NCBI RefSeq assembly: GCF_024362525.1
Contig: NZ_CP101458.1
Location: 1,550,001-1,614,000 of the forward strand
Direction: 5' to 3'
Length of the DNA: 64,000 nucleotides
Origin: Natrononativus amylolyticus
GTDB lineage: Archaea; Halobacteriota; Halobacteria; Halobacteriales; Natrialbaceae
The translations under genes were made by a program, and so were the position numbers. The notes beneath the pieces are model-generated. The model made no database searches and was not told where the DNA came from. It saw only the letters and a list, made by a program, of their open reading frames with translations. Positions 41,710 through 56,543 of the stretch are shown here, piece after piece. The first letter of the stretch is position 1; the number at the start of each line of letters is the position of its first letter.

Positions 41710-43200
41710 TTAGAAGAAGTCGCTGAGTCCCGCCTGGCCGTCGTCGGCGTCGCTGTCGTCGTCGGCCGCGTCGTCCCGATCCGACGTCGTTTCCTCGGAG
41801 TTCCCGCTCGAGGCCTCGAGGGTCTGCTGTGTCTCCGTTTCGTCGCCGGCCGCCGCGTCGCGCTCGCCGTCGTCGCTGTTCGACTCGACCGCCGACAGGA
41901 AGGCGTTCCCGGAGTGGGCGACCGCCCGCTCGGTCGTCAGCTCCACGGCCTCCTCGACGACCGACTGGACCTTGTTCGTGTCCGCGCCGCTGCCGGTGAC
42001 GAACGACACCTCCGTGGCGTCGAGGTCGTAGGCGGCGGCCATTCGAACGGTGAGGTCGCGGTTCGTGCAGTGGTGTGTCATCGCCGCGAGAAACGGGACG
42101 ATTTCCCGACGAGCCGTGGCGACGCTCGTCCCCTCGCGCTCGGCGATGCGTTCGGCGATCGAGTCGCGGGTGTCCCGGCTGCCCCGGGTTCGGCCGAGCT
42201 TCGACCAGTAGCTCGGCGGCCCGTACCGCGTCCAGCCGCCCTTGGGTTCGCGCCTCGAGGCCGCTACCCCCGCGGTCATGTTGTCGGTCGCGTACCGCCA
42301 GTAGGAGTAGTTCTGGCTCGCCCGCACGCGCCCGAGCCAGCGGTCGGCGTTGGCCATGAAGCCGTAGGCGTCGGCCAGTTCCGCGCCCGCGTAGTCCTTG
42401 GGGACGTTGTCCTCGATCCAGTTGAGCAGGTCGTCGGGCGTCTCGTCGACGTCGTAGGAGGCCCGCAGCGCCCCCTCGGCGTCCTTCTCCTTGATGAGGG
42501 CGTCCAGAAAGTCGAAGATCCCCTCGGTGGTGTCGCGCTCGCTCGTGACGACGTCGTCGACGGTGAGAACCGTCGTTTCCTCGGCGACGGCCTGGAGGTC
42601 GTTTACGGCGGAACGGAGGTCCCCCGACGTCGACTCCGCGATCTTCTCGAGGGCCGCGTCCTCGAACTCGATCCCCTCCTTGCGGCAGATGTCCCGCAGG
42701 ACGGGGACGATCGAGCGGGCGGAGACGTCGCGGAACTCGATCGTCTCGCAGGCGTTTCGCAGCGACTGGCTCATGTCGTAGAACTCGTTGGCCACGAGGA
42801 CGATCGGCTGATTCCCTTCCTTGACGAGGCTCGTGACGGCTCGAGAGCCGCCGTAATCGGCGTTGCCGTGGAAGTTGTCGGCCTCGTCCATGATCACCAG
42901 CCGACGGCCCGCGCTGCCGGCGGTGAGCGTGCCGCTCTTGGCCGCCTCGCCGGCGACCCGCTCGATGACGTCGGCCTGCCGGTCGTCGCTCGCGTTGAGC
43001 TCCATCACCGGCCACCCCATGTCGTTGGCCAGCGCGTGCGCGGCCGACGTTTTCCCGACGCCGGGGCTGCCGTGGACGATGGCCGCCTTCCGGTGGTCGT
43101 CCCAGGTTTCGGCCCACTCCCGTAGCTTGTCTCGAGCCTTGTTGTTCCCGCGTACCTCCGAGAGCGTCGTCGGGCGGTACGTCTCGGTCCAGTCTACCAT
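41710..43200 (-). CDS. rfcL: Replication factor C large subunit
   Basis: A 496-residue clamp loader subunit that loads PCNA. AAA+ motifs: Walker A HGSPGVGKTSAAH (43-55), Walker B VIMDEADNFHG, and an arginine-rich sensor region. A C-terminal collar domain follows. The last residues QAGLSDFF form a PCNA-interacting PIP box after an acidic linker. Codons 3-6 (GACTGGACCGAG) lie in the left attachment core of the integrated element, so the N-terminus M-V-D-W-T-E is a hybrid. The element also supplies a Shine-Dalgarno GGAGGT 9 nt upstream and a TATA-like CTTATATG about 27 nt upstream. Confidence 0.96.
   Translation of the reverse strand: MVDWTETYRPTTLSEVRGNNKARDKLREWAETWDDHRKAAIVHGSPGVGKTSAAHALANDMGWPVMELNASDDRQADVIERVAGEAAKSGTLTAGSAGRRLVIMDEADNFHGNADYGGSRAVTSLVKEGNQPIVLVANEFYDMSQSLRNACETIEFRDVSARSIVPVLRDICRKEGIEFEDAALEKIAESTSGDLRSAVNDLQAVAEETTVLTVDDVVTSERDTTEGIFDFLDALIKEKDAEGALRASYDVDETPDDLLNWIEDNVPKDYAGAELADAYGFMANADRWLGRVRASQNYSYWRYATDNMTAGVAASRREPKGGWTRYGPPSYWSKLGRTRGSRDTRDSIAERIAEREGTSVATARREIVPFLAAMTHHCTNRDLTVRMAAAYDLDATEVSFVTGSGADTNKVQSVVEEAVELTTERAVAHSGNAFLSAVESNSDDGERDAAAGDETETQQTLEASSGNSEETTSDRDDAADDDSDADDGQAGLSDFF
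43182..43194 (-). repeat. Left attachment core (attL) inside rfcL
   Basis: The 13-bp core GACTGGACCGAGA on the minus strand encodes codons D-W-T-E of rfcL. It is identical to 56460-56472. Partial similarity continues a few bases on both sides (for example GT-C after the core). Confidence 0.75.
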
Positions 43201-43205
43201 AGCAT

Positions 43206-43231
43206 CATTACCTCCTCATGATTCATATAAG
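43206..43231. promoter_or_regulatory. Divergent promoter region: rfcL Shine-Dalgarno, TATA and left inverted repeat
   Basis: Only 51 bp separate the starts of rfcL (minus) and the recombinase operon (plus). The AT-rich CATATAAG (43224-43231) can serve as TATA for both directions, 27 nt from the rfcL ATG and 21-28 nt from the ATG at 43252. GGAGGT (minus, 43215-43210) is a strong Shine-Dalgarno for rfcL. The segment 43206-43223 also matches the inverted copy at 56427-56444 and may be a recombinase arm site. Confidence 0.6.
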
Positions 43232-43251
43232 ATGACCGCGTGTACAGATCC

Positions 43252-43620
43252 ATGGCGTATGTCCAACTAGTGGTATCCGACGAACAAAAGGCTCGTTGGT
43301 CAGAATACGTAGACGAGCAGCCAGCCGTCGACTCCATCTCCGACCTCATCCGAACCGCCGTTGAAGGACACATGGCGCGTGACGATGACTCGGATCCATC
43401 AGACCTTAACACTCAGGTTATCGGTGGGGAACTCGACGAGATCGAAAGCCGACTGGCTACCATCGAAGACAAGGTAGATCTGCTGCGTCTCGAGAACGTC
43501 GAGGAAGACGAACTGGAAGGGATCGTCGAAAACATCGTTGAGCGATATGAAGTTGCCAACTCTGAGCACATCCTCAAAGAACTCGGCGTCGATACCGAGG
43601 ACGAGTGGCCCTACAAGTGA
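43252..43620 (+). CDS. Small ribbon-helix-helix-like protein preceding the recombinase
   Basis: A 122-residue acidic protein. Residues 1-45 (MAYVQLVVSDEQKARWSEYVDEQPAVDSISDLIRTAVEGHM) look like a ribbon-helix-helix DNA-binding domain. The rest contains a coiled-coil segment (GELDEIESRLATIEDKVDLLRLENVEEDELEGIVENIVERY). The ATG at 43252 is preferred to the in-frame GTG at 43240. The stop TGA shares its A with the recombinase ATG (TGATG), so the two are coupled. It is probably a recombination directionality or regulatory factor of the integrase, by position. Confidence 0.7.
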   Translation: MAYVQLVVSDEQKARWSEYVDEQPAVDSISDLIRTAVEGHMARDDDSDPSDLNTQVIGGELDEIESRLATIEDKVDLLRLENVEEDELEGIVENIVERYEVANSEHILKELGVDTEDEWPYK

Positions 43621-44579
43621 TGACGGGACACGATGATTTCGAGAATTGGCCGACACCCATTCAGCGCCATCTCATCCGCATTAAGGCACGGAAGTCCTCA
43701 CACACTCTGAAGAACCGAGTGGTCACCCTCCAGCAGTGGCGGGAGTACTGTGAGGAAACTGGCTACGATGTCTTAGAGGCAGACACCGACCTCATCGACG
43801 GTTGGTTAGATGAGATGAGAATCGAAGGGTATGCCGACAAATCGATTCTGAACAAAGCATACGACCTGTCTGCTGTATACAGGTATCTTAATGATCGCGA
43901 CGCCGTCGAGAGGAATCCCTTCGATCACGTGGAACTAAACTGGCTCTCGAACAAGCCCAAACTCGATACACACTCTGAGATACGGTATCTCGACATAGAC
44001 GAGTATGAAACGCTCATCGACGCCTGTCGCGATCTCCGTGATGAACTCATCTTACGACTCCTTTGGGCTACAGGAGTGCGCGTATCCGAGGCGAGTGACA
44101 TCCGCATTGATGATATTGACTTGGAAGAGCGCCAAATAGAAGTTCGAACCTCGAAACAACAACGCGGGGAAAATAAGAGTCGAACCGTCTACTATCGGTA
44201 TGATCTGGCTCGTGTCCTCCGAGAATGGTTGAAAGGTGGTCGACGGAACAAATATCTCTATGCGGGTGAGTCCGATTATCTCCTCCTCACGAAGCAATCG
44301 CCCCGAATGCCAGTCAGACGATTAGGTGAGATCGTCCGTGAGGTAGCTGCCCGGACTGATCTCCAGGAGGTCGTCTATACGGACGTAGAGGGGAACCCAC
44401 GGAATCGAATCACCCCACACACGTTCAGGCATTCCTACGCGGTCCATCGTACGAAGAACGGAATGCCCATCGTCTACCTCCAAGACTTGCTCGGCCACTC
44501 CGAGATCGATGTCACCCGCAAGTATCTCAAATTCCGATCCGACGATATCCGTGAGGCCGAAAAGAAATACGCCCCATAG
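43620..44579 (+). CDS. Tyrosine recombinase / integrase (XerC/D-like)
   Basis: A 319-residue tyrosine recombinase. The N-terminal SAM-like DNA-binding domain spans residues 10-110. The catalytic residues are all present: R154 (TGVRVSEASD), K179 (RTSKQQRG), H267-x-x-R270 (HTFRHSYAVH), H293 (LLGHSEIDVT) and nucleophile Y302 (KYLKF). It sits at the left end of the element, reading inward, beside attL. It should catalyse integration in the rfcL site and excision. No intact host tRNA target lies nearby. Confidence 0.95.
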   Translation: MTGHDDFENWPTPIQRHLIRIKARKSSHTLKNRVVTLQQWREYCEETGYDVLEADTDLIDGWLDEMRIEGYADKSILNKAYDLSAVYRYLNDRDAVERNPFDHVELNWLSNKPKLDTHSEIRYLDIDEYETLIDACRDLRDELILRLLWATGVRVSEASDIRIDDIDLEERQIEVRTSKQQRGENKSRTVYYRYDLARVLREWLKGGRRNKYLYAGESDYLLLTKQSPRMPVRRLGEIVREVAARTDLQEVVYTDVEGNPRNRITPHTFRHSYAVHRTKNGMPIVYLQDLLGHSEIDVTRKYLKFRSDDIREAEKKYAP

Positions 44580-44642
44580 TCGCAACGGTCCTCTATTTGA
44601 CAGTTATGGTCCCTGAAGTCCTCAAATGACAATATAATTACC

Positions 44643-44664
44643 TGTATTAACCATTAATACGCAT
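44643..44664 (-). repeat. Operator-like imperfect palindrome, copy A
   Basis: On the minus strand TGCGTATTAATG-GTTAATAC matches the perfect palindrome at 49079-49103 at all but one position of its central 20 bases. It lies between the recombinase and the minus-strand operon ending at 44837. The copies suggest a DNA-binding site for an element-coded protein. Confidence 0.55.
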
Positions 44665-44692
44665 TGATTGTGGCAACATTAAATCTTCATGC

Positions 44693-44732
44693 TCTATACT
44701 ACGAAAGGGGTAGGGGTTACGGAATACGCATA
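44693..44732 (+). repeat. 40-bp direct repeat, left copy (GGGGTAGGGGTTACG core)
   Basis: TCTATAC, seven variable bases, GGGGTAGGGGTTACG, then A-A-x-A-C-G-C-A-T-A. It matches 54688-54727 in 34 of 40 positions, same strand, 10 kb apart. Shorter GGGGTAGGGG cores also occur at 50208-50217 (plus) and 48460-48469 (minus). Confidence 0.7.
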
Positions 44733-44836
44733 CGGTAGAGCGCCTCAAAGTACTGAATTCAGCTGTCTGAATACGGTATCCTGATAATTTAGAAGGGGCT
44801 TCCCGTTCGGGGTCGTGGGTGGGTTCACTCTCGACT

Positions 44837-45619
44837 TTATTTCTCAAGCTTATCTTCATCACCTATGCCGTTGGCAATCTGTACTTTTCGCCAGACATTA
44901 AACAAAATCTCGGATATCCATGTACCTTCTTCCGACTTCTCTTCTATTTCCTCTTCTGAGATGTCGATCTCGATTGAGTGAGCACTGTCATTGGCATCGT
45001 ACCGGAAGTCGTTAAGTGACTTAATGAAATCCTCATCCAGAGTTAACGAGTAGTGCCGAAAATCCTGTAACTGCTCATCGAAGTTCTCAATAAGGACGGA
45101 GAACGGCAGATACTGTGCTCGATCTGGATTGAAAAACATACGGATTTCTCTATTCCCGTAGTGTCCTCGAAGGATATCGATTAACAGCGATTCAAACAGC
45201 TTACGAGTCAGCACCATCGTTGCGTTATATGCCCTTATCTGGTATGTCTTGTTTATTTCATCGATCAATTGATTATAAAACCGTTCATCAGTATAGTCCA
45301 CGGTCAAAAAGTCATCATCGCGTTGTTTTTCAGGGAACTCGGGGAGGTCCACCAGATCGGAGTAGTAATTCATTCCCTCGTGCGTCAGTAGATACCCATC
45401 TCCGTTCTTCTTCACATACCCATCGTTTGCTAACTGACTTGGATACGAGGAGACGTTATTCCGATTTACGTCGACGCGTGAATTATTCAGCGTCTCTTTT
45501 ATTCTTTGAACTAAGACCGGTCCTTCGTCTTTCAATTCATCATAGAAGTATATGGTTAATCCGACGGTGTGCTTGTCTGTATCCACAGATGAATGCTTAA
45601 TCACCCGATCGAAATTCAT
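44837..45619 (-). CDS. Winged-helix plus HEPN/DUF4145-like protein
   Basis: A 260-residue protein. Residues 15-85 look like a winged helix (VQRIKETLNNSRVDVNRNNVSSYPSQLANDGYVKKNGDGYLLTHEG). The C-terminal half is helical, with YNATMVLTRKLFESLLIDILRGHYG and the FRYDANDSAHSIE motif. The R-x7-H with N-D-x-A-H matches DUF4145-type HEPN domains, which are often RNA-cutting or RNA-binding in defence systems. It is the second gene of an operon, overlapping 45616-46281 by 4 nt. Antiphage function is inferred only. Confidence 0.65.
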   Translation of the reverse strand: MNFDRVIKHSSVDTDKHTVGLTIYFYDELKDEGPVLVQRIKETLNNSRVDVNRNNVSSYPSQLANDGYVKKNGDGYLLTHEGMNYYSDLVDLPEFPEKQRDDDFLTVDYTDERFYNQLIDEINKTYQIRAYNATMVLTRKLFESLLIDILRGHYGNREIRMFFNPDRAQYLPFSVLIENFDEQLQDFRHYSLTLDEDFIKSLNDFRYDANDSAHSIEIDISEEEIEEKSEEGTWISEILFNVWRKVQIANGIGDEDKLEK

Positions 45620-46281
45620 ATCTTGATCTCAGACGCAAGGTCGGTAAAGAGCTGATACGCTTCGTCTTTTCCAGGTGGCCGAATTTCGGTAGTAGCGCTT
45701 GGTCCTTTACCCCGTCTGTTCAGATAGATATCCTCTTCTTCTACGCGACCCACATTTCTCCAGTTGTCTTCGTTCAACCCGGAATCAGCTAATGCCTGCT
45801 TCAGTTCTGATGTTTTCATTTTCTTTATGCCGTGGAAGTCATCCAAGACAGTGAGGAGAAGAATAGAAGCGTTCAGCAGTCGGTGCTGACCATTATCCCC
45901 AAGCAGGTCATTGTCTCCGATATAGCGAGGATGCTCTTTGATTTCACCATCTTCTACCCTTCCCGCTTTGACTAACCGATAGAGTTTCTGTTCAGATAGG
46001 TCGTTAAGGGAGGAGACACGATTAGTAAACCCGTCTAATGCCTCCTGCTCATGGAAATCTTGCTCAACTCCCTTCTGATCGTCTGCTTCTTCTTTTCCAA
46101 CATCCGTCTCCTGCTGATCAACTTCCTCTAGATTTTCATCAGTATTTGGAAGCGGATCCGCTGGCGGATAGTCTTCTGTGATGTTCTTGAGGGCTTTGAG
46201 AACTTCTTCGTAGTCGTCTTCTTCATTCGCTTTGATTTCAGCTTCTATCGGCCCGTGCTGAAAGGTAATGTTGATATCCAT
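45616..46281 (-). CDS. Hypothetical protein, operon partner of the HEPN-like protein
   Basis: A 221-residue protein. An N-terminal part (MDINITFQHGPIEAEIKANEEDDYEEVLKALKNI) may be a small alpha-beta domain. A central acidic Gln/Glu/Asp linker follows, then a C-terminal winged-helix-like region (MKTSELKQALADSGLNEDNWRNVGRVEEEDIYLNRRGKGP). It is the first gene of the pair, and its stop overlaps the HEPN-like start (ATGA). An AT-rich promoter lies upstream (TTATATTCTTATAAATC). I do not recognise the family. Confidence 0.6.
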   Translation of the reverse strand: MDINITFQHGPIEAEIKANEEDDYEEVLKALKNITEDYPPADPLPNTDENLEEVDQQETDVGKEEADDQKGVEQDFHEQEALDGFTNRVSSLNDLSEQKLYRLVKAGRVEDGEIKEHPRYIGDNDLLGDNGQHRLLNASILLLTVLDDFHGIKKMKTSELKQALADSGLNEDNWRNVGRVEEEDIYLNRRGKGPSATTEIRPPGKDEAYQLFTDLASEIKI

Positions 46282-46367
46282 ATCACTTCTAAAACTGAAT
46301 TATATTCTTATAAATCATTCTCATCAATTGATCACTCACTATTTGACTATGGTTCATCGGTGGCAAT

Positions 46368-46388
46368 CCCATTATCAGGAATAATGGG
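46368..46388 (-). terminator. Hairpin after the 46416-47288 membrane gene
   Basis: CCCATTAT (46368-46375) pairs perfectly with ATAATGGG (46381-46388) around a five-base loop. It lies downstream of the minus-strand gene ending at 46416 and upstream of the next operon. No clear T-tract follows, so terminator or operator roles are both possible. Confidence 0.4.
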
Positions 46389-46415
46389 AAGTATGGGCTG
46401 AGCAGTTTGAAATAG

Positions 46416-47288
46416 TCATAGTACTGACGGCAACTCATAGCCCAACACACTGGCTAACAGAATACCTGCTGCGATCGTCCAGGCGAACTCGCACTCTAAT
46501 GACCACCTGAGTTCTGAGAGTGACTGAGCTGCCCCATAATTGATATAGATATATCGGGTTAAATCCCGCAGCAGCAAGAGCGATAATACCACCAACATTG
46601 CTATCAGCACTCCATCGAAGAACCATGTGAGGACGAGCCAAACAGGCAGACTCACAAATAGCAATAACACCAGTGTTCCGGTCCCGAAAAGCAAGGTCTT
46701 TCGGTCACTGTTTGGTGGTATCGTTGCACCATTATCCATCGCTGCTTCGATCTGATCCCTACCGAAGTCAGCAGCCTTACGAAGAACCAGTCCAATCACA
46801 TTATCATCAGTTTCTTCATGGATAATGCTCGACCAAGTCTTCGCGTATTCCCTCAGCACCAGAAGATCGAGAACAACAAAGGATAGAGAAAGGACGAAAG
46901 CGAGGCTGACAAAGAAGGTTATCGGAGACAGGTATCCCGTCTGAGCGCTGGCGTGAAGACTGATGCCTGCGAGTCCTCCAATGAGAGCAAGTTGTAGTAA
47001 CTTCGAACTCAATCGGAGTGATTTCCTGAGAAGACCCATATTCGGATCTTCGGCAGTCCCCGCCATAGCTCGAAGACACATTGTGAGAAAAACCACTCCA
47101 AGAGCGATCTGAAAGACCACCTCGTACTCCCAACCCGTTGAGAACTCGAAAACGATGAGCGAGAGAACACCGAGAATGATTGATTCAATGAGTATCGCAT
47201 CACCCCCAACAACGGACTCGTTATAGCGTTCCACCACTGTATACAGGGATGGTATATCTTCTGAGTAATGAATTTTCTCACAGCTCAC
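46416..47288 (-). CDS. Multi-helix membrane protein, unknown
   Basis: A 290-residue protein with about eight hydrophobic segments, for example IESIILGVLSLIVFEFSTGWEYEVVFQIALGVVFLTM, LLQLALIGGLAGISLHAS, ITFFVSLAFVLSLSFVVLDLLVLREYA, LLFGTGTLVLLLFVSLPVWLVLTWFF and MLVVLSLLLLRDLTRYIYI. A soluble loop of about 45 residues sits in the middle. No transporter motif is recognised. It is separated from the HEPN operon by a hairpin and from the TS-like gene by divergent promoters. Confidence 0.65.
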   Translation of the reverse strand: MSCEKIHYSEDIPSLYTVVERYNESVVGGDAILIESIILGVLSLIVFEFSTGWEYEVVFQIALGVVFLTMCLRAMAGTAEDPNMGLLRKSLRLSSKLLQLALIGGLAGISLHASAQTGYLSPITFFVSLAFVLSLSFVVLDLLVLREYAKTWSSIIHEETDDNVIGLVLRKAADFGRDQIEAAMDNGATIPPNSDRKTLLFGTGTLVLLLFVSLPVWLVLTWFFDGVLIAMLVVLSLLLLRDLTRYIYINYGAAQSLSELRWSLECEFAWTIAAGILLASVLGYELPSVL

Positions 47289-47355
47289 CCCTGTACGATC
47301 ACGGGATCACCCAATCACTCGTAACTCTTAAATTGTCAGATAAACTATATTAATT

Positions 47356-48084
47356 ATGGTACCGCCCGAGACCAGTCCGTTTGTTGTTGCACCTGATATT
47401 GGGACTGCCTATACGGCGCTGCTCGAGTCTCGAGTCCACGGGCTCTTCCCTCACGACTATCACGTCGTCCATATCTCAGAGCCTGTCTCTTCGATCGACT
47501 ACGACGAGTTTTCCATAGAGCGATCTCAATGGCTCGAGGTAGTCAATACAGGAGAAACGCTGGGACGCTTCGAGAGCTACGAGTTCACCGACGGTACTAC
47601 CGGGCGGTACTGGGTACAGGACCGTATCGAGGAGCTCTTCGCTGGCCTGTACGCTACCAGACTCACGGCCCCCCGTAACCAACTCGATATGATACGGGGT
47701 CGCCTCAAGCAAGGCAATCATGGACAGACAACGAATGCACTCCTCGGACAGCCATATCGACTTACTCCCGATCTCGAGAAGGCGACTGAAGGGAAACCAC
47801 TCGCTCCTAACATTCCGTGTCTGGTCTTGCTACAATTCAAACCTCAGCGAGACAAGCTCCACCTCTATACGACGTTCCGAAGCCAATACATCGATACGAA
47901 GTGCTATGGGAATCTCATCAGTCTCGCTCTGTTACTCGCAGACATGTGCCACCAAACAGGCTATGAACCAGGCTATCTGGTAGAGACAGCTCATAATTCG
48001 ATCTTCCGGAACGTTGGTGATGCGCGAGGGTTGTCTTCTGTTCTCTCTGATGATCCACCAAAAGGAACTCACTCTATTTCGTAA
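47356..48084 (+). CDS. Divergent thymidylate-synthase-fold protein
   Basis: A 242-residue protein whose residues 105-220 align in order with the ThyA catalytic core. LAPNIPCLVLLQFKPQ with C155 matches the LAPCH active-site cysteine. DKLHLYTTFRSQYID matches GKLxCxLYQRSxD. NLISLALLLADMCHQTGYEPG matches NIASYALLxxMxAQxxxxxxG. The residue after C155 is Leu, not His, and the N-terminal dUMP/folate segment is short. This is not the host enzyme; a full thyA exists at 6972. The fold also includes nucleotide hydroxymethylases of viruses, so base modification or nucleotide-pool control is possible. Confidence 0.65.
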   Translation: MVPPETSPFVVAPDIGTAYTALLESRVHGLFPHDYHVVHISEPVSSIDYDEFSIERSQWLEVVNTGETLGRFESYEFTDGTTGRYWVQDRIEELFAGLYATRLTAPRNQLDMIRGRLKQGNHGQTTNALLGQPYRLTPDLEKATEGKPLAPNIPCLVLLQFKPQRDKLHLYTTFRSQYIDTKCYGNLISLALLLADMCHQTGYEPGYLVETAHNSIFRNVGDARGLSSVLSDDPPKGTHSIS

Positions 48085-48514
48085 GGTTGGTTTCCGGTCT
48101 TCTGCAGAGGGCGATCTTGATCCGTATAGTATAGCGTATTTTATATCCGACTATAAACTAGAGCAATAATATGCTAAGGCTGTGAGAATGACTACTTCTT
48201 CTGTTATAGATGTGTACAGCTGCCCTAATCTGCCTGCACTATCTCTTGAAAATATCTTGTGAATTCTTAGTGGTGCGGGAGATACAGAGTAATTCTTGTC
48301 TCATTTGTTCTGTATCAACTAAGAGTTGATAATTACTACGAGGTCTTCCGCTGTTCTATTCTCCTGAAGGTTACATCTTCAGAGAGGATAAGATTATATC
48401 CGGGATTAAATAACGCGGAGAAACCATACGGGAAGGGTGGGAGTGGTGAACGATACTCGCCCCTACCCCACTCTAGTAAGGTAACCGCTTGCGAGTTCTC
48501 TCAGTCTACTATTG

Positions 48515-48826
48515 CTAGAGGTGGCTCCGGGTATTTCCAATCTCAAACGAATCGGGTGATCCGATTCTCGACTGGATAGAGTGCCTACCTTCATTGGTCC
48601 CGGTGTAACCAGTCGGACCTCCGGTAGCCAGGGTTGGCCGTTTGCACCCACTGCGAGTGCCATCAGACGCGACCTGCGTAAGCTCCCGCGCTGGCATTTC
48701 AGCCCAACGGAGACTTTTCATTTCTCCATTTTTCTGATCACGCGGAAGGTTCTCAGACCGATTAAGCTCCTGCGACGTATGGAACTTACCACATAGCCGG
48801 TTCGACGGACGATACACCTGTTTCAT
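48515..48826 (-). CDS. Doubtful hypothetical protein (103 aa)
   Basis: A 103-residue frame from MKQVYRPSNRLCGKFHTSQELNR, ending GNTRSHL. It is basic, Gly/Ser/Thr-rich (TRSGCKRPTLATGGPTGYTGTNEG) and has no recognisable domain. Codon third positions are mixed. It could be genuine element coding or a chance frame in structured DNA. Listed only so the region is not called empty. Confidence 0.25.
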   Translation of the reverse strand: MKQVYRPSNRLCGKFHTSQELNRSENLPRDQKNGEMKSLRWAEMPARELTQVASDGTRSGCKRPTLATGGPTGYTGTNEGRHSIQSRIGSPDSFEIGNTRSHL

Positions 48827-49078
48827 TTTTCGTTTTGGAGAAGGAGGGACCCCTCTCATTTGGATGCGATAAAGGCCCTCGTGGAGTTACCCCACCGACG
48901 CGGTCATTTCCACGTGGTGGAGCTCCAAATGATGGGTCTTTTATCGCAGCGTAGGATTCCTACGCCCTATTTACAAGTACTATTTACTTGCACTTAAGTA
49001 TTTTGGTCTATTTGCAATTTCGTAATGTTATCACGCCTTTCAGTAGTATAATTCTTTGCACCCATGTGAGTTTCTCAG

Positions 49079-49103
49079 GTGCGTATTAATGATTAATACG
49101 CAC
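49079..49103. repeat. Perfect 12-bp-arm palindrome, copy B
   Basis: GTGCGTATTAAT-G-ATTAATACGCAC: two perfect 12-base arms around one base. A near copy lies at 44643-44664. It is about 220 bp upstream of the cassette starting at 49325. Likely a protein-binding site (operator or replication/partition site). Confidence 0.7.
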
Positions 49104-49324
49104 CCCCAGGAGGAACAAAGTCGCATCCCGAAAAGCGAACCGGGATTTCAGGGACCGGTGATTCCCTGCCTGTTCTTGAACAGGAAATGATGCGACCACC
49201 ACCGATTGAACACGGGAGATCGGGAAACGCGTCCCGCAGTATCAAATAAGCGTGGTATTAAAATAAGTCTTACTATAGTAAGGAATAAAGTGTAAAACAT
49301 AGTAGCTATGTACGTAGTTCGAAA

Positions 49325-49441
49325 ATGACTGTAAAACAACTCAATGTGTCGTTCGACGCGGAAACCCACGCAGCACTCTTAACTGTGAAAGGTGACCGGA
49401 CCTGGAGACAGGCGATCGTCGATGAGTTCAGGGTCAACTGA
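49325..49441 (+). CDS. Very small protein (38 aa), first of the membrane cassette
   Basis: A 38-residue frame, MTVKQLNVSFDAETHAALLT through IVDEFRVN. The strand-helix pattern (QLNVSFDAETHAALL) resembles the N-terminal part of a ribbon-helix-helix protein. Its TGA shares its A with the ATG of the next gene (TGATG), which supports a real, coupled gene. An AT-rich promoter-like ACATAGTAGC/TATAGTAAGG region lies upstream. Function may be regulatory. Confidence 0.5.
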   Translation: MTVKQLNVSFDAETHAALLTVKGDRTWRQAIVDEFRVN

Positions 49442-50139
49442 TGTCCAATCACTCCGTTTGGAACGAGAAGGTGAAGCAAGACCCTGATATCTGCCTGAAC
49501 TGCTTCACCTGGCTCAAAGAGTCATATACACTTCGTGGAGTGATGACGAAACTCGGTGATCCTGACTCAGCGAAGACGTACACTCGAAATTCAAACGATC
49601 CCACGAACAGTGTAAAGGAGCGAGCTATTCGACGCCAACGACGTCGTATTCGTGGGCCTACTGTTGAGTTCGATGGTGATGGGCGAAAGGAGGATGAACA
49701 CCAAGCAGCTCAGTATAACACGTATCCGGTCTGTGAGTGCGGCGTAGATCACCATGAAGTGGTCTACAAAGAAGAACTCACTCACGAGGAATTGAAGGGA
49801 GCCGTTGTTGAGATCGGAAAGAAACTCACGAATGATCGTCGTGTGAACCTCGATCGGAAGCAGCTGGTCGTTGATTACTTGAGACTCCGTGATTCGACTC
49901 GCCCGGAAGATCAGTTCGCCTCTTCTCGTCATCTCCTGAAGCATGTCGTTGATTCGAATGCGGAGATAGTGGATTACGAACCTCAAGAAACGGAGTTCGT
50001 CTATACTGATCGGGATGAGAAGAACAAACCGAATCTCACCCCCGAGGTCGATCTTGGCGAGGTAGACAACTCCCATCTCCCCGATCTCGATCAAGACCTC
50101 ATCGAAGTCACGGGACGGTCCAGTGGGGCTACTGAATAA
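49441..50139 (+). CDS. Cysteine-containing hypothetical protein
   Basis: A 232-residue charged protein. C-x-x-C-type cysteines near the N-terminus (DICLNCF) and later YPVCECGVDHHEVV could form a zinc site. The middle is basic (ERAIRRQRRRIRGP), and the second half acidic with helices (HEELKGAVVEIGKKLTNDRRVNLDRKQLVVDYLRLRD). This suggests nucleic-acid binding. No family is recognised. It is coupled to the 38-residue ORF and followed by three small membrane proteins. Confidence 0.65.
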   Translation: MSNHSVWNEKVKQDPDICLNCFTWLKESYTLRGVMTKLGDPDSAKTYTRNSNDPTNSVKERAIRRQRRRIRGPTVEFDGDGRKEDEHQAAQYNTYPVCECGVDHHEVVYKEELTHEELKGAVVEIGKKLTNDRRVNLDRKQLVVDYLRLRDSTRPEDQFASSRHLLKHVVDSNAEIVDYEPQETEFVYTDRDEKNKPNLTPEVDLGEVDNSHLPDLDQDLIEVTGRSSGATE

Positions 50140-50257
50140 TTAGATAGCTACCTCGAGCCCCCTGAATTCGTAGCCGTCGGCTTCCCTCGCGTAGGCGGTT
50201 TGCGTAGGGGGTAGGGGTTTCGCGGTATAGATAGTGAATATTTATGATTTCAATACA

Positions 50258-50605
50258 ATGAAGAGCAAAATCACAGACGAAGCGAGTGGCACTGGCAAGA
50301 ATATCAAAGATACAGTCCGCGAGTTCGAGTTAGTCGATCTAATTCCACCGAGTATCGTGAGTATCCTCGTTTGGGCGCGGGATACAATCCCTCGAGGACT
50401 TGGATTCGCAGATCGAACGAGACATTTCACTGGTGTCTTCGGGCTCACGGTCGTGATGGTGTTATCATCCGGATTCCTGTTGACGGTCGCAGCAGCGGTC
50501 TATTTCCTGATCGCAATCTGGTTTCCACTATTACGATTCATTCCTGCATTTGAGAGACGATGGCCCTTCGCCGAATCAAACTGGCCGCTGTGGGAGCTGG
50601 AGTGA
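50258..50605 (+). CDS. Small membrane protein of the cassette (115 aa)
   Basis: A 115-residue protein from MKSKITDEASGTGKNIKDTVREFE. It has a hydrophobic segment HFTGVFGLTVVMVLSSGFLLTVAAAVYFLIAIWFPLLRF, probably two helices, and a soluble N-terminus. An in-frame GTG lies 24 bases upstream. The G-rich motif GGGGTAGGGGTT (50208-50219) lies about 40 bp before it. Unknown function; the run of small membrane proteins recalls virus membrane-protein operons of pleolipovirus-like elements, without recognisable homology. Confidence 0.6.
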   Translation: MKSKITDEASGTGKNIKDTVREFELVDLIPPSIVSILVWARDTIPRGLGFADRTRHFTGVFGLTVVMVLSSGFLLTVAAAVYFLIAIWFPLLRFIPAFERRWPFAESNWPLWELE

Positions 50606-50611
50606 TCACTG

Positions 50612-50824
50612 ATGATCGAACTCAAAGCGCCACATTCGCTTCAGGGCTGGTTTGTCTGGATCACAGCATTTACTCTTGGGCTGGTCGCATTCTTCTCATC
50701 AGCAGCGATTGGAAGCCCCATATTTGTCATCACAGTCGGGCTGATCGTGAGTGTTGCCTATGTCATCTATCTCCTACTATTCAAGACCCACAGTACACTC
50801 AAGCACGGTCGCTCGAGGGGGTGA
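50612..50824 (+). CDS. Small two-helix membrane protein (70 aa)
   Basis: A 70-residue protein with two helices, WFVWITAFTLGLVAFFSSAAI and PIFVITVGLIVSVAYVIYLLLF, and a basic C-terminal tail (KHGRSRG). It starts 6 bp after the preceding stop, so the genes form an operon. Confidence 0.6.
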   Translation: MIELKAPHSLQGWFVWITAFTLGLVAFFSSAAIGSPIFVITVGLIVSVAYVIYLLLFKTHSTLKHGRSRG

Positions 50825-50830
50825 TCATAG

Positions 50831-51091
50831 ATGCTACTGATTGGCGGGATCGTTCTGAGTATCGTGGTACTCGTCTACGTCTTCCCGGATGAAACTCGAA
50901 CGTGGTGGACTCGAGTCTATACAACGAAGGAGGTCATGTTTGGAGCAGCCGGACTCATCCTCGCGTATTTCTTAATTCAGACGGGGAATCTATGGTTTGT
51001 GCTGCTTGGGGTGATCGGGATCGCCTATGGAGTACTGTGGATAGTGTTCGAACGACCTGATGAGAAGGTCAAACACACGTTGAGAGGTTGA
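50831..51091 (+). CDS. Small membrane protein (86 aa)
   Basis: An 86-residue protein with three hydrophobic stretches: MLLIGGIVLSIVVLVYVF, VMFGAAGLILAYFLIQ and LWFVLLGVIGIAYGVLWIVF. A charged loop (PDETRTWWTRVYTTKE) links the first two, and the tail is basic. Six bases separate it from the upstream gene. Unknown function. Confidence 0.6.
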   Translation: MLLIGGIVLSIVVLVYVFPDETRTWWTRVYTTKEVMFGAAGLILAYFLIQTGNLWFVLLGVIGIAYGVLWIVFERPDEKVKHTLRG

Positions 51092-51094
51092 GCA

Positions 51095-51331
51095 ATGGGT
51101 GTCTGCTATCGAGTACTCCATTACGGGGTCAGTACGGGGAATCGATTTACGAAAACCGCACTACTTCGCCGTGGTCTGTTAGCTGGATTACGACCAAACG
51201 GGATAAAATACCGGGCTACGCTCGCTATTCTATATTCGCGCGCGTATAGGGTAATTGGCCGAAATAGTTCGGGCTCAATCGGCGCTCTCGAAAAATTAAC
51301 GGAAATGATGAACATGCTCATCAGGGCTTGA
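51095..51331 (+). CDS. Small basic protein at the end of the cassette (78 aa)
   Basis: A 78-residue basic protein, MGVCYRVLHYGVSTGNRFTK through MMNMLIRA, starting 3 bp after the previous stop. The centre is Arg/Leu-rich with no clear membrane helix. Operon position supports it; coding character is weaker than for its neighbours. Unknown function. Confidence 0.45.
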   Translation: MGVCYRVLHYGVSTGNRFTKTALLRRGLLAGLRPNGIKYRATLAILYSRAYRVIGRNSSGSIGALEKLTEMMNMLIRA

Positions 51332-51667
51332 TCCCCCGGAATAGACGGTTTGGTGGGTTGTGAGTTACCGTAGGAAGGCTCCCCATCCTACGGTTCGGGC
51401 ATGAGAAAAATCGCGACCGGGTTTCGGTGGTGTCAGCACTCCTAAAGCGCGTACCGAGTGATTACGGGCCTATTTCGATACTCCTGACGGCATTGATACC
51501 GATCTGGGACCGGAAGAGATTATGGGAAGAATGCTCGACCACTACGAGTTCCGATTAGATGACGCGCTCGAAAGGGCCAGGGCGGTTAATTCCAACTGGG
51601 ACTGGCGAATTATACTTTCACTCTGGTTGCGGCAGTTTAAATATTCCCTTCTGCCAACTGGTTTAGT
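51332..51667. other. Gap between membrane cassette and exonuclease
   Basis: 336 bases. It contains the hairpin at 51367-51394 and, near the right end, the promoter TTTAAATATTCC (51637-51648), about 20-30 nt before the exonuclease ATG. An overlapping ORF (51522-51857) is judged spurious. Confidence 0.55.
51367..51394 (+). terminator. Hairpin after the membrane-protein cassette
   Basis: ACCGTAGGA (51367-51375) pairs perfectly with TCCTACGGT (51386-51394) across a 10-base loop. It lies 36 bp after the last gene of the cassette, where a transcript end is expected. A T-tract is not obvious. Confidence 0.45.
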
Positions 51668-52336
51668 ATGCGATACAATCGCGACGGTAATGGCTATGAC
51701 AGAATCGCAACGTTCGACATCGAAACAACCCACTGGAAAGCCACAGAGGGTGAGACTGTTTCAGTGGGGATTGCCGTCCATGACTGTGGCGCTCCAGGAA
51801 GTGACATACAGTACAAACCGTTTCATCGCAACAGCACAGGTGACGAAGCCGAACTGATCGCTCGAGCGCTCGAATACGTCGACGACTGTGGAGTAGATGC
51901 TCTCGTCTCGTACAATGGCAGGGATTTCGACATGGACTTTCTCCACACACGGCAGTACCTTCTCGGAGAAGATAAGATCGAGCCGGAGATCGACACCCCA
52001 GCAACCCACATTGACCTCTTCGAAGACCGGAAGAAGAAGTGCAACCGGACGGGCGAAAAATGGCCGAAGCTCGAAGAGTGTCTTGCAACCTACAAGTTCG
52101 CTGAACCAGAAACGCTTTGGAACGGGCGTCCAGTTACGAACAAGCGGTTTGGCGAAGAACTTGGTCCTGCATATCTCGCTGCCCTGGAGGACAACGATCG
52201 CGACCAAGCCGACTCGCTCCGAGAAGTGATCGACCACTATCTCGTTACCGACCTCGAGGCAAATCTCGCGATCTACTACGCGGATACTGGACAGGAGTTC
52301 AAACCACACTATCTCGGGACTCGCGCCGTGTTCTGA
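51668..52336 (+). CDS. DEDDy-type 3'-5' exonuclease (RNase H fold)
   Basis: A 222-residue stand-alone exonuclease of the DnaQ/PolB-exo superfamily. Exo I is FDIETTHW (D and E), Exo II is YNGRDFDMDFL (D), and Exo III is HYLVTDLEA, a Y-x3-D pattern that marks the DEDDy branch. HIDLFEDRKKK lies between Exo II and III. Single-domain forms of this kind occur in haloarchaeal mobile elements. It would digest single-stranded DNA ends, serving element replication or defence. A TATA-like TTTAAATATT lies about 25 nt upstream. Confidence 0.85.
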   Translation: MRYNRDGNGYDRIATFDIETTHWKATEGETVSVGIAVHDCGAPGSDIQYKPFHRNSTGDEAELIARALEYVDDCGVDALVSYNGRDFDMDFLHTRQYLLGEDKIEPEIDTPATHIDLFEDRKKKCNRTGEKWPKLEECLATYKFAEPETLWNGRPVTNKRFGEELGPAYLAALEDNDRDQADSLREVIDHYLVTDLEANLAIYYADTGQEFKPHYLGTRAVF

Positions 52337-52405
52337 GACCTACGTGACTATTCCACCCGCCGACGATCACCAATAATAGCCAGATCTCGAACCAGGGTGG
52401 TTTTA

Positions 52406-52933
52406 TCAGAACAGCTTTCGCAGCGCCTCTAATGCATGTGAAAGATCTGGCGGGTTGAATTCAAATCGCCTTTCTACTCGAGAATTACCGTCCTCAGTTT
52501 CAATTTCTTTATACTCATATTTAATTCCAGACCCAAGATATAATACAATGAATACCAATTCAATTGGTCCAATAATTTCAAGTAAAAATGGACTCTCCTT
52601 GCGGATTCTCTTAACTTTGACCGCTCCATCACGCTGATTAGATAGATATCTGCCTTTGGTACGAGTAATTCTTTTGAGATCACCTTGACTGGCTAACTTT
52701 CCAATAATTCTTTCCCGAGCCTCTTTATCGTTCACGACCTCTTCTCGGCGCTCCTTGCTGTACGCGAATTCGTGTCTTATCTCGGCTAGTGTTTCTGATC
52801 CAGATAGACCTTCTGCGATCCCGTTTATATAATATAGTAATGCAGTTATCTCATTTAGAGATCTTTGTTCTGGTTCACGAGACACATGCAGTTCACCGAC
52901 TGCAAGACCACTATCGTAGGTGCCATTATCCAT
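52406..52933 (-). CDS. Hypothetical protein (175 aa)
   Basis: A 175-residue protein. The N-terminal half is helical (NEITALLYYINGIAEGLSGSETLAEIRHEFAYSKERREEVVNDKEARERIIGKLA). A middle basic segment (DLKRITRTKGRYLSNQRDGAVKVKRIRKE) precedes a hydrophobic stretch (FLLEIIGPIELVFIVLYLGSGI) that may be a membrane or buried helix. A charged C-terminal domain ends LSHALEALRKLF. Codons are AT-rich. No family is recognised; a winged helix may lie in the middle. Confidence 0.6.
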   Translation of the reverse strand: MDNGTYDSGLAVGELHVSREPEQRSLNEITALLYYINGIAEGLSGSETLAEIRHEFAYSKERREEVVNDKEARERIIGKLASQGDLKRITRTKGRYLSNQRDGAVKVKRIRKESPFLLEIIGPIELVFIVLYLGSGIKYEYKEIETEDGNSRVERRFEFNPPDLSHALEALRKLF

Positions 52934-53075
52934 AATAATTGCTGAGATTATATCCTATTAACTCTGTTTCTAGATGTTTGTGTGAAAGATCTAATGCTTG
53001 TGTCACGGTCTAAATATTGAAATTGACTTAGCGATTATGCCTAATACGTCTTTGTGCGCTTTCAAATTCGGATTA

Positions 53076-53924
53076 TTACGCTTCAGACGCACAGATATTT
53101 GTATTTCGAGCCTTGGCCTTTTCTACGAGTTCCTTGTTGAACTGTCGCCCATCTTCACCTTCATGGGCTCGCCGATGACAATTCGGACACAGAGCAATGA
53201 CGTTATCTGGATGGTCTGCCCCCTCGTCTCCAAGCATCTTCAAATGGTGGACCTCAAGAAATGGTTTCCCGTCTTTCGATTTGAACGGCGCTGCTTCTTC
53301 ACAACCTTGACAAACCCCATCAGCAGAACGCCTCGCAAATTTTTTGACTACCTCAGATCGGTTGTACTGAGAACTTGCTCCTCCAGAAGACCCAGTAGAA
53401 TCACTTGATCCGGAGTTACCACCGTTCGTTGATTGTAACGGCGCAGCTACGCAAGCATCCGCATAGAGCTCTTCTAATGGCTTCGTCTCAGGGTCGCCCT
53501 GGACTTTGACGGTTCGGCCTCCTACTGGGACAAGATCGAACAGAATTGCATCCCTGAAATTGTCCTTCTTATCTTGGAGAGGAACCCACTCGTGATCCTC
53601 ATACTGGTATTCCCCCCGGTATCTGACCATGTAACTCTCATCGGTCTTCTCAAAAACATGGATCTCTTTACCCATGTCCTCGTGATCGCGGATTGCTCGA
53701 TTCACGAAGCGCCAGTCCATGTCGCCTTCAGCGCCTTGTCCTGAGTATTGGAAGGTACCATCAGCCAGAAATTCGTCAACATATCCAAAGCTCCTCCCTC
53801 GATCACTCGTGATGATGAACACGTACGGGTTGTCTTTTGAGGTGATGATTCCACCTTGCCAAGTACCACCCTGAGCGGCCAGTTCATCGCGGCGGTGATA
53901 AGAGTCACCAAACTGAAGGTCCAT
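53076..53924 (-). CDS. HNH endonuclease with SRA-like N-terminal domain (McrA-like)
   Basis: A 282-residue protein. The N-terminal 140 residues (FGDSYHRRDELAAQGGTWQGGII, FGYVDEFLADGTFQYSGQGAEGDMDWRFVNRAIRDHEDMGKEIHVF, YMVRYRGEYQYEDHEW) match the modified-base-binding head found in ScoMcrA-like HNH enzymes. A Ser/Gly-rich linker follows. The HNH domain has CQGC, VHHLKMLGDEGADHPDNVIALCPNCHRRAHEG, giving the H-N-H set and four zinc cysteines. By family it should cut methylated or otherwise modified DNA (type IV restriction). It is carried as element cargo. Confidence 0.88.
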   Translation of the reverse strand: MDLQFGDSYHRRDELAAQGGTWQGGIITSKDNPYVFIITSDRGRSFGYVDEFLADGTFQYSGQGAEGDMDWRFVNRAIRDHEDMGKEIHVFEKTDESYMVRYRGEYQYEDHEWVPLQDKKDNFRDAILFDLVPVGGRTVKVQGDPETKPLEELYADACVAAPLQSTNGGNSGSSDSTGSSGGASSQYNRSEVVKKFARRSADGVCQGCEEAAPFKSKDGKPFLEVHHLKMLGDEGADHPDNVIALCPNCHRRAHEGEDGRQFNKELVEKAKARNTNICASEA

Positions 53925-54048
53925 AGTGATTGTACTTTTGCCAGACGTCTTGAAGCCTATGTTAGGTGGATACCATTCAAGAAGTAGAGGATTCCGTCAC
54001 TGAAAATCTAGTCAAAAATACTATTGTATGTGGGCGAAAAGGTACAGT

Positions 54049-54561
54049 ATGGTAAAAAGGGACGCGATATTCTCGGCCGATAATGAACACAGATACCGCC
54101 TTTTCAGAAGTCTTGACGGTGATTTTCGAGACAAAACCCTAACATTTGTGCTATTGAATCCGTCAACAGCGGACGATGAAATAGATGATGATGCAACCAA
54201 AAGGTGTATTGAAATTGCTAAATACCACGACTTCAAACACCTTGAAATTGTCAATCTATTCTCGCTAATTGAACCGACATCGGAGGATTTAGAGGATGCT
54301 AAGAATCCGGTTAGACAAGAAAATGACAAACATATCATTGAGTCCTGTGAGGAGGCAGATAAGATAATTTGTGGATGGGGTAATATTGGAGACCATATGA
54401 ATAGAGCGGCAGAAGTTTACGAAAAGATATCACACCATGATCTTGAGTGTCTGAGAGTTAACCAAACTGGAGAACCCACATACGTAAATCCAAATGGACC
54501 ACTACAACATCAATTGAGCTACGATACTCGGCCATATGAGAGAGCAATTGAGGTCTATTAA
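54049..54561 (+). CDS. DUF1643 family protein
   Basis: A 170-residue protein matching DUF1643: the start VKRDAIFSADNEHRYRLFRSL, the central FVLLNPSTADDEIDDDATKRCIEIAKYHDFKHLEIVNLFSL, and IICGWGNIGDHM. The family occurs widely near restriction and mobile genes and has no proven reaction. A conserved N-P-S-T-A-D segment suggests nucleotide binding or catalysis. ATG 54049 is chosen because a TATA-like AAATACTA lies about 26 nt upstream; an ATG at 54028 is in frame. The gene is markedly AT-rich. Confidence 0.85.
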   Translation: MVKRDAIFSADNEHRYRLFRSLDGDFRDKTLTFVLLNPSTADDEIDDDATKRCIEIAKYHDFKHLEIVNLFSLIEPTSEDLEDAKNPVRQENDKHIIESCEEADKIICGWGNIGDHMNRAAEVYEKISHHDLECLRVNQTGEPTYVNPNGPLQHQLSYDTRPYERAIEVY

Positions 54562-54880
54562 TTCAGGCTAATAGGCCACATTTGGTATTGTAGTAGACAG
54601 GGCTCTGAATGAGTAATTTGTTTGCGGCAGTACGTGCTACGAAAGTGTATCCGCCATTAGTAAATATTCGACATTAAATTTCACCCGTCTATACCCGGAA
54701 GGGGGTAGGGGTTACGAAAAACGCATAGTTTGGAGCCCTTCTCACGGTTGTCTGTAGGTGTTTCGAGGGTACTTCGTCGTATCTTAGTATGTGGTTCAAC
54801 CCCACTTCCAGACCAGCCACATCCAACTCACTAAACATTCATGAAGTCGTATTTATAGCAAGAGAGACAAATATATTGGC
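54562..54880. other. Gap with the right copy of the 40-bp repeat
   Basis: 319 bases without a gene. It includes the 40-bp repeat (54688-54727) and, near its end, the protease promoter (a TATA-like TATTTATAGC about 54849-54858, 22-31 nt before the start). Confidence 0.6.
54688..54727 (+). repeat. 40-bp direct repeat, right copy
   Basis: Matches 44693-44732 in 34 of 40 positions, including GGGGTAGGGGTTACG and ACGCATA, on the same strand. It lies in the gap before the protease gene. Confidence 0.7.
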
Positions 54881-55726
54881 ATGCCGGCTCAATACGGATA
54901 TCAGATTGATTTAGCATTTCTCGTTACTACACCGCTGCATGTCGCAGGCCCGGATAGTGGCGGAACTGGGTTCTTCTTCCGCATTGATACAAATACATAC
55001 ATTGTTACCGCAGGGCATGTACTTGCAGACGAAGACCGAGAAAGCTATGGAGAGGAATTAAGATCGGAGATTCATCAACAACCACCCGAAGTATCCTATT
55101 ATCTGCGTGATACTGACGACGTAACAAATACCACTAGATACTCCGTTGATCTCTCGGAAGAACAGCGGACTTGGGGTTTTGATCCGAATGGAGCGGACGT
55201 TGCAGTCATACAGATTGATGAGGAGCTGATTACCCTTCCGGATTACTTTAGTAGAGACGAAGATGATGAAGAACCCCGGTTTTCCTCGTTTTCGCTCACA
55301 GAACGTCAGTTCATTGGAAATAACCAACTGACGACTGATAGAGTGTACAGCCTCGGGTATCCAGGGAGACTGTACGATTCACAAACAAAGTTCCCGATCA
55401 GAAGAAATTCGTTACTCGCCACTCCGATACATGTCGATTTCGAGGGGAAGCCTCGATTCCTTACAGACGCACGCATGGACCCTGGGACTAGTGGAAGCCC
55501 AATCTTAGTCGAGCCATCTCAAGTCCAATATCCATGGGGTGCACATTTAACTCAAACTCACGAAACACCTATTCTACTCGGCGTTCATGCCGGGAACTTC
55601 TATTATAACGAAGGCAACTCTGAATCTGAGGAAGATTGTTTGAGAGCGACACAATATTTCGACCTCAACGAGACTTGGCGTCCCGAGGCGATTATTCGTG
55701 CGATACAGGAGGCTGTTCCCAGCTAG
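54881..55726 (+). CDS. Trypsin-like serine protease
   Basis: A 281-residue S1/S7-fold protease without signal peptide. The catalytic triad is visible: H46 in YIVTAGHVLADE, D106 in GADVAVIQI and S204 in MDPGTSGSPILVEP. G-Y-P-G-R-L (160-164) supports the second barrel. The family includes stand-alone intracellular proteases in defence loci, in which cleavage of a partner protein triggers a response. No such partner is proved here; the neighbouring 55809 gene encodes a helix-turn-helix-like membrane protein. Confidence 0.85.
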   Translation: MPAQYGYQIDLAFLVTTPLHVAGPDSGGTGFFFRIDTNTYIVTAGHVLADEDRESYGEELRSEIHQQPPEVSYYLRDTDDVTNTTRYSVDLSEEQRTWGFDPNGADVAVIQIDEELITLPDYFSRDEDDEEPRFSSFSLTERQFIGNNQLTTDRVYSLGYPGRLYDSQTKFPIRRNSLLATPIHVDFEGKPRFLTDARMDPGTSGSPILVEPSQVQYPWGAHLTQTHETPILLGVHAGNFYYNEGNSESEEDCLRATQYFDLNETWRPEAIIRAIQEAVPS

Positions 55727-55808
55727 ATTGAATGGCAGAATACTGATCATATTTTGGAAGAGAGTCGGTATATTCATAAACTCAATAACAAAAATAGATC
55801 AATAAGGT

Positions 55809-56198
55809 ATGCTTGATAATATTGAAAAACCTTATTGGCACGATGATTTGAAGAGTATCTATGAGAATGGGAGCGAAAAGGAATGTAATGGTACAATCGA
55901 GAACGAGGACATCTTAAAAGAGAACAAGTACATTAAAGACGCGATTGTCGATGGAGAAAAAGATCTTGTGATCACTTCTGAGGGACATAGAGCCTATGAG
56001 AAATTCCGTGATCAACAACTCGATTATGCAAAGGTCAATGTAGCACAGTCAGTAGCATTGTTGGTTGGGATTATTGGAGCATTAGCTTCGTTGATAATCG
56101 CGTTCCCTGGTGGGGCAATGTGGCTCGCTGGGGCTGCAGCCCTTATTTTGTTTGTTACTGGAATTATAATTCAAATAGAACTAGGAAGGGTAGAATAG
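55809..56198 (+). CDS. Winged-helix-like protein with two membrane helices
   Basis: A 129-residue protein. Residues 1-70 (KPYWHDDLKSIYENGSEKECNGTIENEDILKENKYIKDAIVDGEKDLVITSEGHRAYEKFRDQQ) suggest a degenerate winged helix. Two membrane helices follow (VAQSVALLVGIIGALASLIIAF and MWLAGAAALILFVTGIIIQIEL). It is the rightmost gene of the element and lies 82 bp after the protease gene. Membrane-bound effector is an inference. Confidence 0.6.
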   Translation: MLDNIEKPYWHDDLKSIYENGSEKECNGTIENEDILKENKYIKDAIVDGEKDLVITSEGHRAYEKFRDQQLDYAKVNVAQSVALLVGIIGALASLIIAFPGGAMWLAGAAALILFVTGIIIQIELGRVE

Positions 56199-56543
56199 CT
56201 CTAAGAACGACCATACTGGTCAGACGCATCTCGCCAGGGTTCAACACCTAGACCAATAGTCCTCGTAGAGGTCTGAGTTTATACAAAGCTTGGCTAAATT
56301 AACGAATGTTCCGAATATCTCCGTGTACCCCTCATGAGTAGTAATCCTGACGGAATTAATTCAACACATTACTTGCGATTTCGTCCTCTGGCGAGTCGTC
56401 ACAATAATATAGGAACTAACTGAGTAAATCATGATAAGGTCATGTTGAATTAGGGCACTTCTCGGTCCAGTCGGTCATTGTCCGATGTTGGAAGAAGCGC
56501 GTTCAGTGGTTCCGGAGCACCGCCCGTTCCCGTTCGCCGACGG
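56199..56543. other. Right end of the element and junction to the chromosome
   Basis: No gene is seen. The segment holds the right 18-bp inverted sequence (56427-56444), attR (56460-56472) and the displaced rfcL start codon (56478-56476, minus strand). The switch from AT-rich to GC-rich sequence is at about 56460-56480. Confidence 0.7.
56460..56478 (-). pseudogene. attR with displaced original rfcL start (M-T-D-W-T-E)
   Basis: On the minus strand, ATGACCGACTGGACCGAG (56478-56461) encodes M-T-D-W-T-E, which fits haloarchaeal RfcL N-termini. Reading then runs into element DNA and stops after about 12 codons (KCPNST, then stop). The 13-bp core is shared with 43182-43194. This is best explained as the 5' stub of the pre-integration rfcL, with its own promoter on the right. 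Confidence 0.75.

Follow-up and report, generated by a model that had tools for sequence, protein, structure and literature searches.

A family of haloarchaeal integrated elements recombines within the first codons of rfcL and very probably gives the gene a new promoter

An integrated element occupies the 5′ end of rfcL, the gene for the large subunit of replication factor C, in the haloarchaeon Natrononativus amylolyticus. We analyzed this element in a stretch of 64,000 nucleotides of the chromosome (the window; contig NZ_CP101458.1, positions 1,550,001 to 1,614,000), together with its relatives in other haloarchaea. Our overall reading, which we hold with high confidence, has 3 parts: a dedicated tyrosine recombinase recombines within the conserved D-W-T-E codons of rfcL; integration has severed the gene from its conserved haloarchaeal promoter and start, both left as a stub at the far end of the element; and the element supplies a start codon, codons 1 to 3, and an upstream region, in which a promoter is predicted from position. 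The earlier note on this DNA called the target essential, and published work agrees: the large RFC subunit (RFC-B) is essential in Haloferax volcanii (PMC7776575, section 14, citing Giroux and MacNeill 2015).

The rfcL gene lies on the minus strand at 41710–43200 and its product matches AAA and RFC lid domains; a homologue is present in 123 of the 125 genomes of the family, at 74–90% identity. Read from 43200 on the minus strand, the gene begins ATG GTA GAC TGG ACC GAG (M-V-D-W-T-E). The codons for Asp-Trp-Thr-Glu form the 13-nt attL core, GACTGGACCGAGA (43182–43194, minus strand). Comparison of attL with attR assigns the preceding start and second codon (ATG GTA; 43195–43200, minus strand) to the element; codons 1–3 (Met-Val-Asp) are element-derived and the remainder of the gene is host DNA. 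Upstream lies a 51-bp divergent control region (43201–43251) common to rfcL and to an operon of a small ORF and an integrase. It contains GGAGGT, 9 nt upstream of the rfcL ATG (reverse complement of 43210–43215), and the TATA-like CTTATATG, centered 27–28 nt upstream of that ATG (reverse complement of 43224–43231). The coordinates given in the earlier note are all correct. It had also treated the valine at position 2 as a mark of the element; MVDW is native in other haloarchaeal genera, and V2 is not diagnostic.

The far end retains what the near end has lost. Between equivalent core positions the element spans 43195–56472 (13,278 bp, or 13.28 kb), delimited by the attL and attR cores and by a shift in GC content, from 65–72% in flanking DNA to 42–56% within the element. 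The attR core, again GACTGGACCGAGA, lies at 56460–56472 on the minus strand and is followed by the far end of the element; the stub there is MTDWTEKCPNST, then a stop. It starts at 56478, reads ATG ACC GAC TGG ACC GAG AAG (M-T-D-W-T-E-K), and stops after 12 codons, with upstream DNA that differs from that of the current gene, as had been noticed before. Its ATG ACC (56473–56478, minus strand) is the displaced native start; native rfcL genes of the family begin MTDW or MSDW. Further upstream is the displaced native promoter, GCTCCGGAACCACTGAAC (56501–56518, minus strand), where functional relatives have CTAAAC. The displaced copy has CTGAAC instead (56501–56506), a form found at rfcL in none of the 124 other family genomes; this single-site change suggests, and is consistent with, decay after displacement.

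The element carries other features of interest. An ORF at 53076–53924 combines a weak SRA match with an HNH nuclease domain and resembles an element-borne restriction enzyme for modified DNA. A 71-nt direct repeat, 73% identical and containing GGGGTAGGGGTTACG, is located near both element ends (44676–44746 and 54671–54741). We recognized no conjugation genes in the element.

The integrase is a tyrosine recombinase of 319 aa (43620–44579, plus strand; Phage_integrase, E 4e-30; PHROG integrase). Its ORF is intact and overlaps the stop of the small ORF, the first gene of the operon, which encodes an aligned 122-aa protein (43252–43620, plus strand). This small protein possibly has a ribbon-helix-helix N-terminus followed by a coiled coil; its RHH_1 match is weak (E 0.042, in 1 of 9 members), and its AlphaFold2 model is of low confidence (pLDDT 58). 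Close viral, phage, or plasmid relatives of the integrase were not found; the best match, at 32%, is in a Natrinema plasmid.

Our search for the integrase covered 1 genome per species, 125 from the family and 394 from the class, and we defined close relatives as matches at E≤1e-60. In all 11 genomes with a close relative, the integrase is divergent from an adjoining rfcL, with the small ORF between them; 1 of these, from Haloarcula amylolytica JCM 13557, appears in our set under 2 handles (L014 and G213), which seem to denote one contig, as length and sequence are identical. An arrangement found without exception in 11 genomes is unlikely to be accidental. By contrast, none of the 6 weaker family relatives (1e-42 to 1e-59) is located at rfcL. 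In a maximum-likelihood tree, the 11 rfcL integrases form one side of a branch (support 98/97). Related integrase and small-ORF modules adjoin uracil-DNA-glycosylase-like and endonuclease-III-like genes (L012 in G051 and L013 in G040), which may be a sign that other DNA-repair genes serve sister integrases as targets.

The hosts of the rfcL integrases belong to 3 families (f1, f3, and f4), and the distribution does not track host kinship. The left 4.6 kb is 92% identical between elements of 2 genera (L020/L035 in G157 and L021/L037 in G205), a sequence likeness that we take as evidence of recent transfer. Given this identity across genera and a host range independent of host phylogeny, the elements are mobile. 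In all 11, the attachment site is rfcL, not a tRNA gene, and empty rfcL sites are present in relatives. The native promoter and start stub were located at the far end in 8 elements; the far ends of the other 3 (G189, G205, and G143) were not found with a strict or a relaxed core.

At the near end the pattern is uniform. Every one of the 11 elements supplies the rfcL start codon, in frame and no more than 6 nt from the core; the encoded starts are ATG GTA, ATG AGC, ATG AGT, ATG ACT, TTG GTA, or an ATG that abuts the core. In 3 elements (G335, G213, and G157), attL and attR have different third bases in the Asp codon (GAY). The crossover thus lies to the right of this base, within TGGACsGAG (the Trp-Thr-Glu codons), and it follows that the element supplies codons 1–3 of rfcL and all upstream DNA.

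What is replaced upstream is well defined. In 28 element-free relatives, the native promoter GCTCCGCAACCACTAAACGC is strongly conserved about 25–45 nt before the rfcL ATG. The pattern CTAAAC-N20-36-core occurs in 274 of the 394 class genomes; a reversed control pattern had no match in the table of class genomes. The exact native pattern is missing from 120 class genomes. The element is present in 11 of them, and another 100 were read one by one: most of these show minor variants of the native promoter, with about 18 left unclassified. Two genomes (L087 in G298 and L088 in G360) have in common an rfcL upstream region unlike the native promoter and unlike the elements.

The upstream sequences of the elements are unlike the native GCTCCGCAACCACTAAACG promoter, and they keep its spacing. 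We aligned the upstream DNA of 10 non-redundant elements on the core and scanned A+T content in 10-base windows at 384 common offsets. The top window is −36 to −27 from the core, with a mean of 0.81 against a regional 0.54; it is the best of the 384 offsets (p<5e-5), was never equalled in 20,000 random-offset trials, and holds after the related G000 and G034 are dropped. The native CTAAAC occupies −36 to −31, and the two boxes are therefore in register. Its wording is variable: TTATAT in the window (G000) versus CTACAT(G) in G034, the closest relative at 83% identity. From the position of this box, we infer that the element upstream DNA acts as the rfcL promoter and thus that the element very probably gives rfcL a new one; at the native distance from the start, the box would direct a near-leaderless rfcL mRNA.

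The same box may face both ways. In the window, CTTATATG (43224–43231, minus strand; CATATAAG on the plus strand), at the conserved position of the AT-rich box, is a candidate shared TATA-like box: it precedes the rfcL ATG by about 27 nt and the small-ORF ATG by about 25 nt. The core and the small-ORF start are 57–65 bp apart in 10 of 11 elements and 75 bp apart in G080. By this spacing the AT-rich box also stands about 24–34 nt before the small-ORF start, which is TATA distance for the divergent operon. The promoter regions of the integrase operon and rfcL have about 51–69 bp in common, and in most elements one AT-rich box is common to both directions. By its geometry, which falls short of proof, one box can serve both rfcL and the integrase operon.

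This double placement also feeds another explanation, in which the element restores the reading frame only, the AT box belongs to the integrase operon alone, and rfcL is transcribed by read-through or from a promoter that lies further inside the element, antisense to the integrase operon. The box suits the divergent operon about equally well by its position, its TATA is weak in G034, and there is precedent in SpyCIM5, which drives mutL from a promoter inside its int gene (PMC3430984). Against this, the common offset richest in A+T across 400 bp falls exactly at the rfcL TATA position, with native spacing, and read-through from the adjoining operon is impossible because that operon is divergent from rfcL. 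We consider a deeper promoter or read-through very unlikely, and favor the box as the rfcL promoter.

The role of GGAGGT depends on where the transcript begins. In archaea, a TATA box about 27 nt upstream places the transcript start at or next to the ATG. The rfcL box is centered about 27 nt before the ATG; the mRNA is therefore probably leaderless, with GGAGGT outside the transcript. Alternatively, GGAGGT could be a true ribosome-binding site, with a leader of at least 15 nt and a transcript start upstream of 43215. The 7-nt anti-SD match AGGAGGT in G000 and G034 speaks for this, as it is rare in random element 24-mers (0.5%), as do matches of 5–6 nt in G258 and G143, given that native leaders never exceed 3. 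The TATA spacing, which implies a start at the ATG, speaks against it; matches in the other elements are 3–5 nt, near random expectation, and the SD reading is weak in elements outside G000, G034, and G258. Moreover, H. volcanii makes no use of SD motifs in its 5′-UTRs (PMC3986360), and the motif belongs to a repeat found at both element ends. We judge the ribosome-binding site unlikely and retain the leaderless reading. Of the earlier proposal that the element provides a new promoter, ribosome site, and first codons, the replacement of start, codons 1–3, and promoter region stands; the ribosome site is doubtful, since GGAGGT falls upstream of the predicted mRNA and GGAGG is instead the center of the repeat.

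The repeat itself is well marked. GGAGG is centered in ATCATGA-GGAGG-TCATGAT, perfect in G034 and with one mismatch in the window. The left-end copy of the window (43207–43225, minus strand; the ATCATGAGGAGGTAATGAT region) has an inverted match of 15/19 to the far end, a level reached in 0 of 200 shuffles. Repeats covering the left-end part recur 10–33 nt beyond the far-end core in 5 elements (G000, G034, G335, G378, and G157), where 0 or 1 of 200 shuffles were as good. Located between box and start, this subterminal repeat is probably bound by the recombinase or by the small protein, and the integration state or occupancy of the site could then affect rfcL transcription. A coupling of replication to the state of the element is possible and speculative. 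Its strongest form is a compact switch working in both directions: a single TATA-like box would drive the integrase operon and rfcL, with recombinase or small-protein sites between box and start, so that element state sets the dose of RfcL and thus host replication; we offer this tentatively, as a doubtful extension of the main reading.

Remnants show how the arrangement may outlive its maker. In 4 genomes (G027, G132, G310, and G119), rfcL has an element-type start next to a remnant in which no integrase is recognizable. The remnant in G027 (L072, 1186–3247) is 2.06 kb long and retains the 2 att cores, together with the displaced native promoter and the small ORF; it also has a glycoside-hydrolase-like ORF reading toward rfcL. 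Its −36 to −27 box is GC-rich. In G132 a scar of about 330 bp, containing a small-ORF fragment, separates the native promoter from the element-type start; in G310 the small ORF is broken; the assignment of G119, which has a related fragment, is less certain. Transcripts from the old promoter may read through to rfcL in G027 and G132, and these 2 are not by themselves proof of promoter activity. As with SpyCIM5 at mutL (PMC3430984), the element-type rfcL start can outlast the element.

With the start of an essential gene inside the element, the left end would be held in place even after loss of the integrase; its essentiality would explain why the left end persists while the rest decays. Precise excision should rebuild the native rfcL, and deletion of the left end would not be tolerated. 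The suggestion in the earlier note that loss of the element could be costly is not supported in that form: only imprecise loss of the left end should be lethal, and the element would not be strictly addictive.

The persistence of integrase-less remnants without obvious harm also bears on a plainer account, in which the junction is neutral, with a start and promoter merely good enough for rfcL and no regulatory effect on the host. In its favor, too, element start codons often equal native choices (ATGGTA and ATGAGC). Set against it, the upstream regions are so unlike the native promoter that equal regulation would be a coincidence, and both the subterminal repeat and the sharing of sequence with the integrase promoter lower the likelihood of full neutrality. 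We regard a neutral junction as somewhat unlikely.

The strategy has close bacterial parallels. The SXT/R391 ICE in prfC (Hochhut and Waldor 1999, described in PMC8409611) also attaches at the 5′ end of a protein-coding gene, and it provides a new promoter and N-terminus; it differs in being bacterial and conjugative, and its target prfC, the gene of peptide chain release factor 3, has no part in replication. IMEVchUSA3 and other dusA islands (PMC8409611) likewise insert within the 5′ end; they give a new start, N-terminus, and promoter, as lacZ fusion showed, with reduced expression; these are bacterial, target a tRNA-modification gene, and add an N-terminus of about 35 residues, compared to 3 at rfcL. 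As in the SXT and dusA systems, the haloarchaeal recombinase is next to the att site, the core repeats with the original start at the other end, and the frame is restored in all 11 elements. SpyCI islands of Streptococcus pyogenes occupy the 5′ end of mutL, also a DNA-maintenance gene, and their state changes mutL expression; an integrase-dead island with promoter rescue parallels the rfcL remnants (PMC3430984). The default is opposite in SpyCIM1, which blocks mutL when integrated (PMC3430984), a block that the essential rfcL could not tolerate.

Archaeal parallels are more distant. Integrases of the pTN3 type are also archaeal; their recombination site is in the 5′ half of the target gene, and the integrase promoter then drives that gene. 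They differ in targeting tRNA genes and in splitting the integrase gene (PMC8371274). The suicidal integration of pTN3 and SSV splits the integrase, whereas the ORF at rfcL is intact, at 319 aa, and the target encodes a protein. Haloarchaeal SNJ2-type integrases resemble ours in belonging to Halobacteria, in being tyrosine recombinases, and in having a 13-bp att, with a tRNA gene as target in place of the rfcL of all 11 elements here (PMC8371274). In that review, archaeal 5′ targeting is confined to tRNA genes, and protein-gene targets are listed without supplied promoters; a thaumarchaeal survey lists 3′-distal regions as targets (PMC6563490). Our literature search, incomplete for subscription papers, found neither an rfcL attachment site nor an archaeal case at the start of a protein gene.

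If this reading is true, at least 11 haloarchaeal species, spread over 3 families, have a conserved essential replisome gene under the signals of a mobile element, with remnants in up to 4 more. It would extend the bacterial strategy of rewriting gene starts to archaea and to a replication gene, and would explain the retention of an element end without a toxin. With empty and filled sites and clear promoters, these haloarchaea would provide a tractable system for asking whether mobile elements tune host replication.
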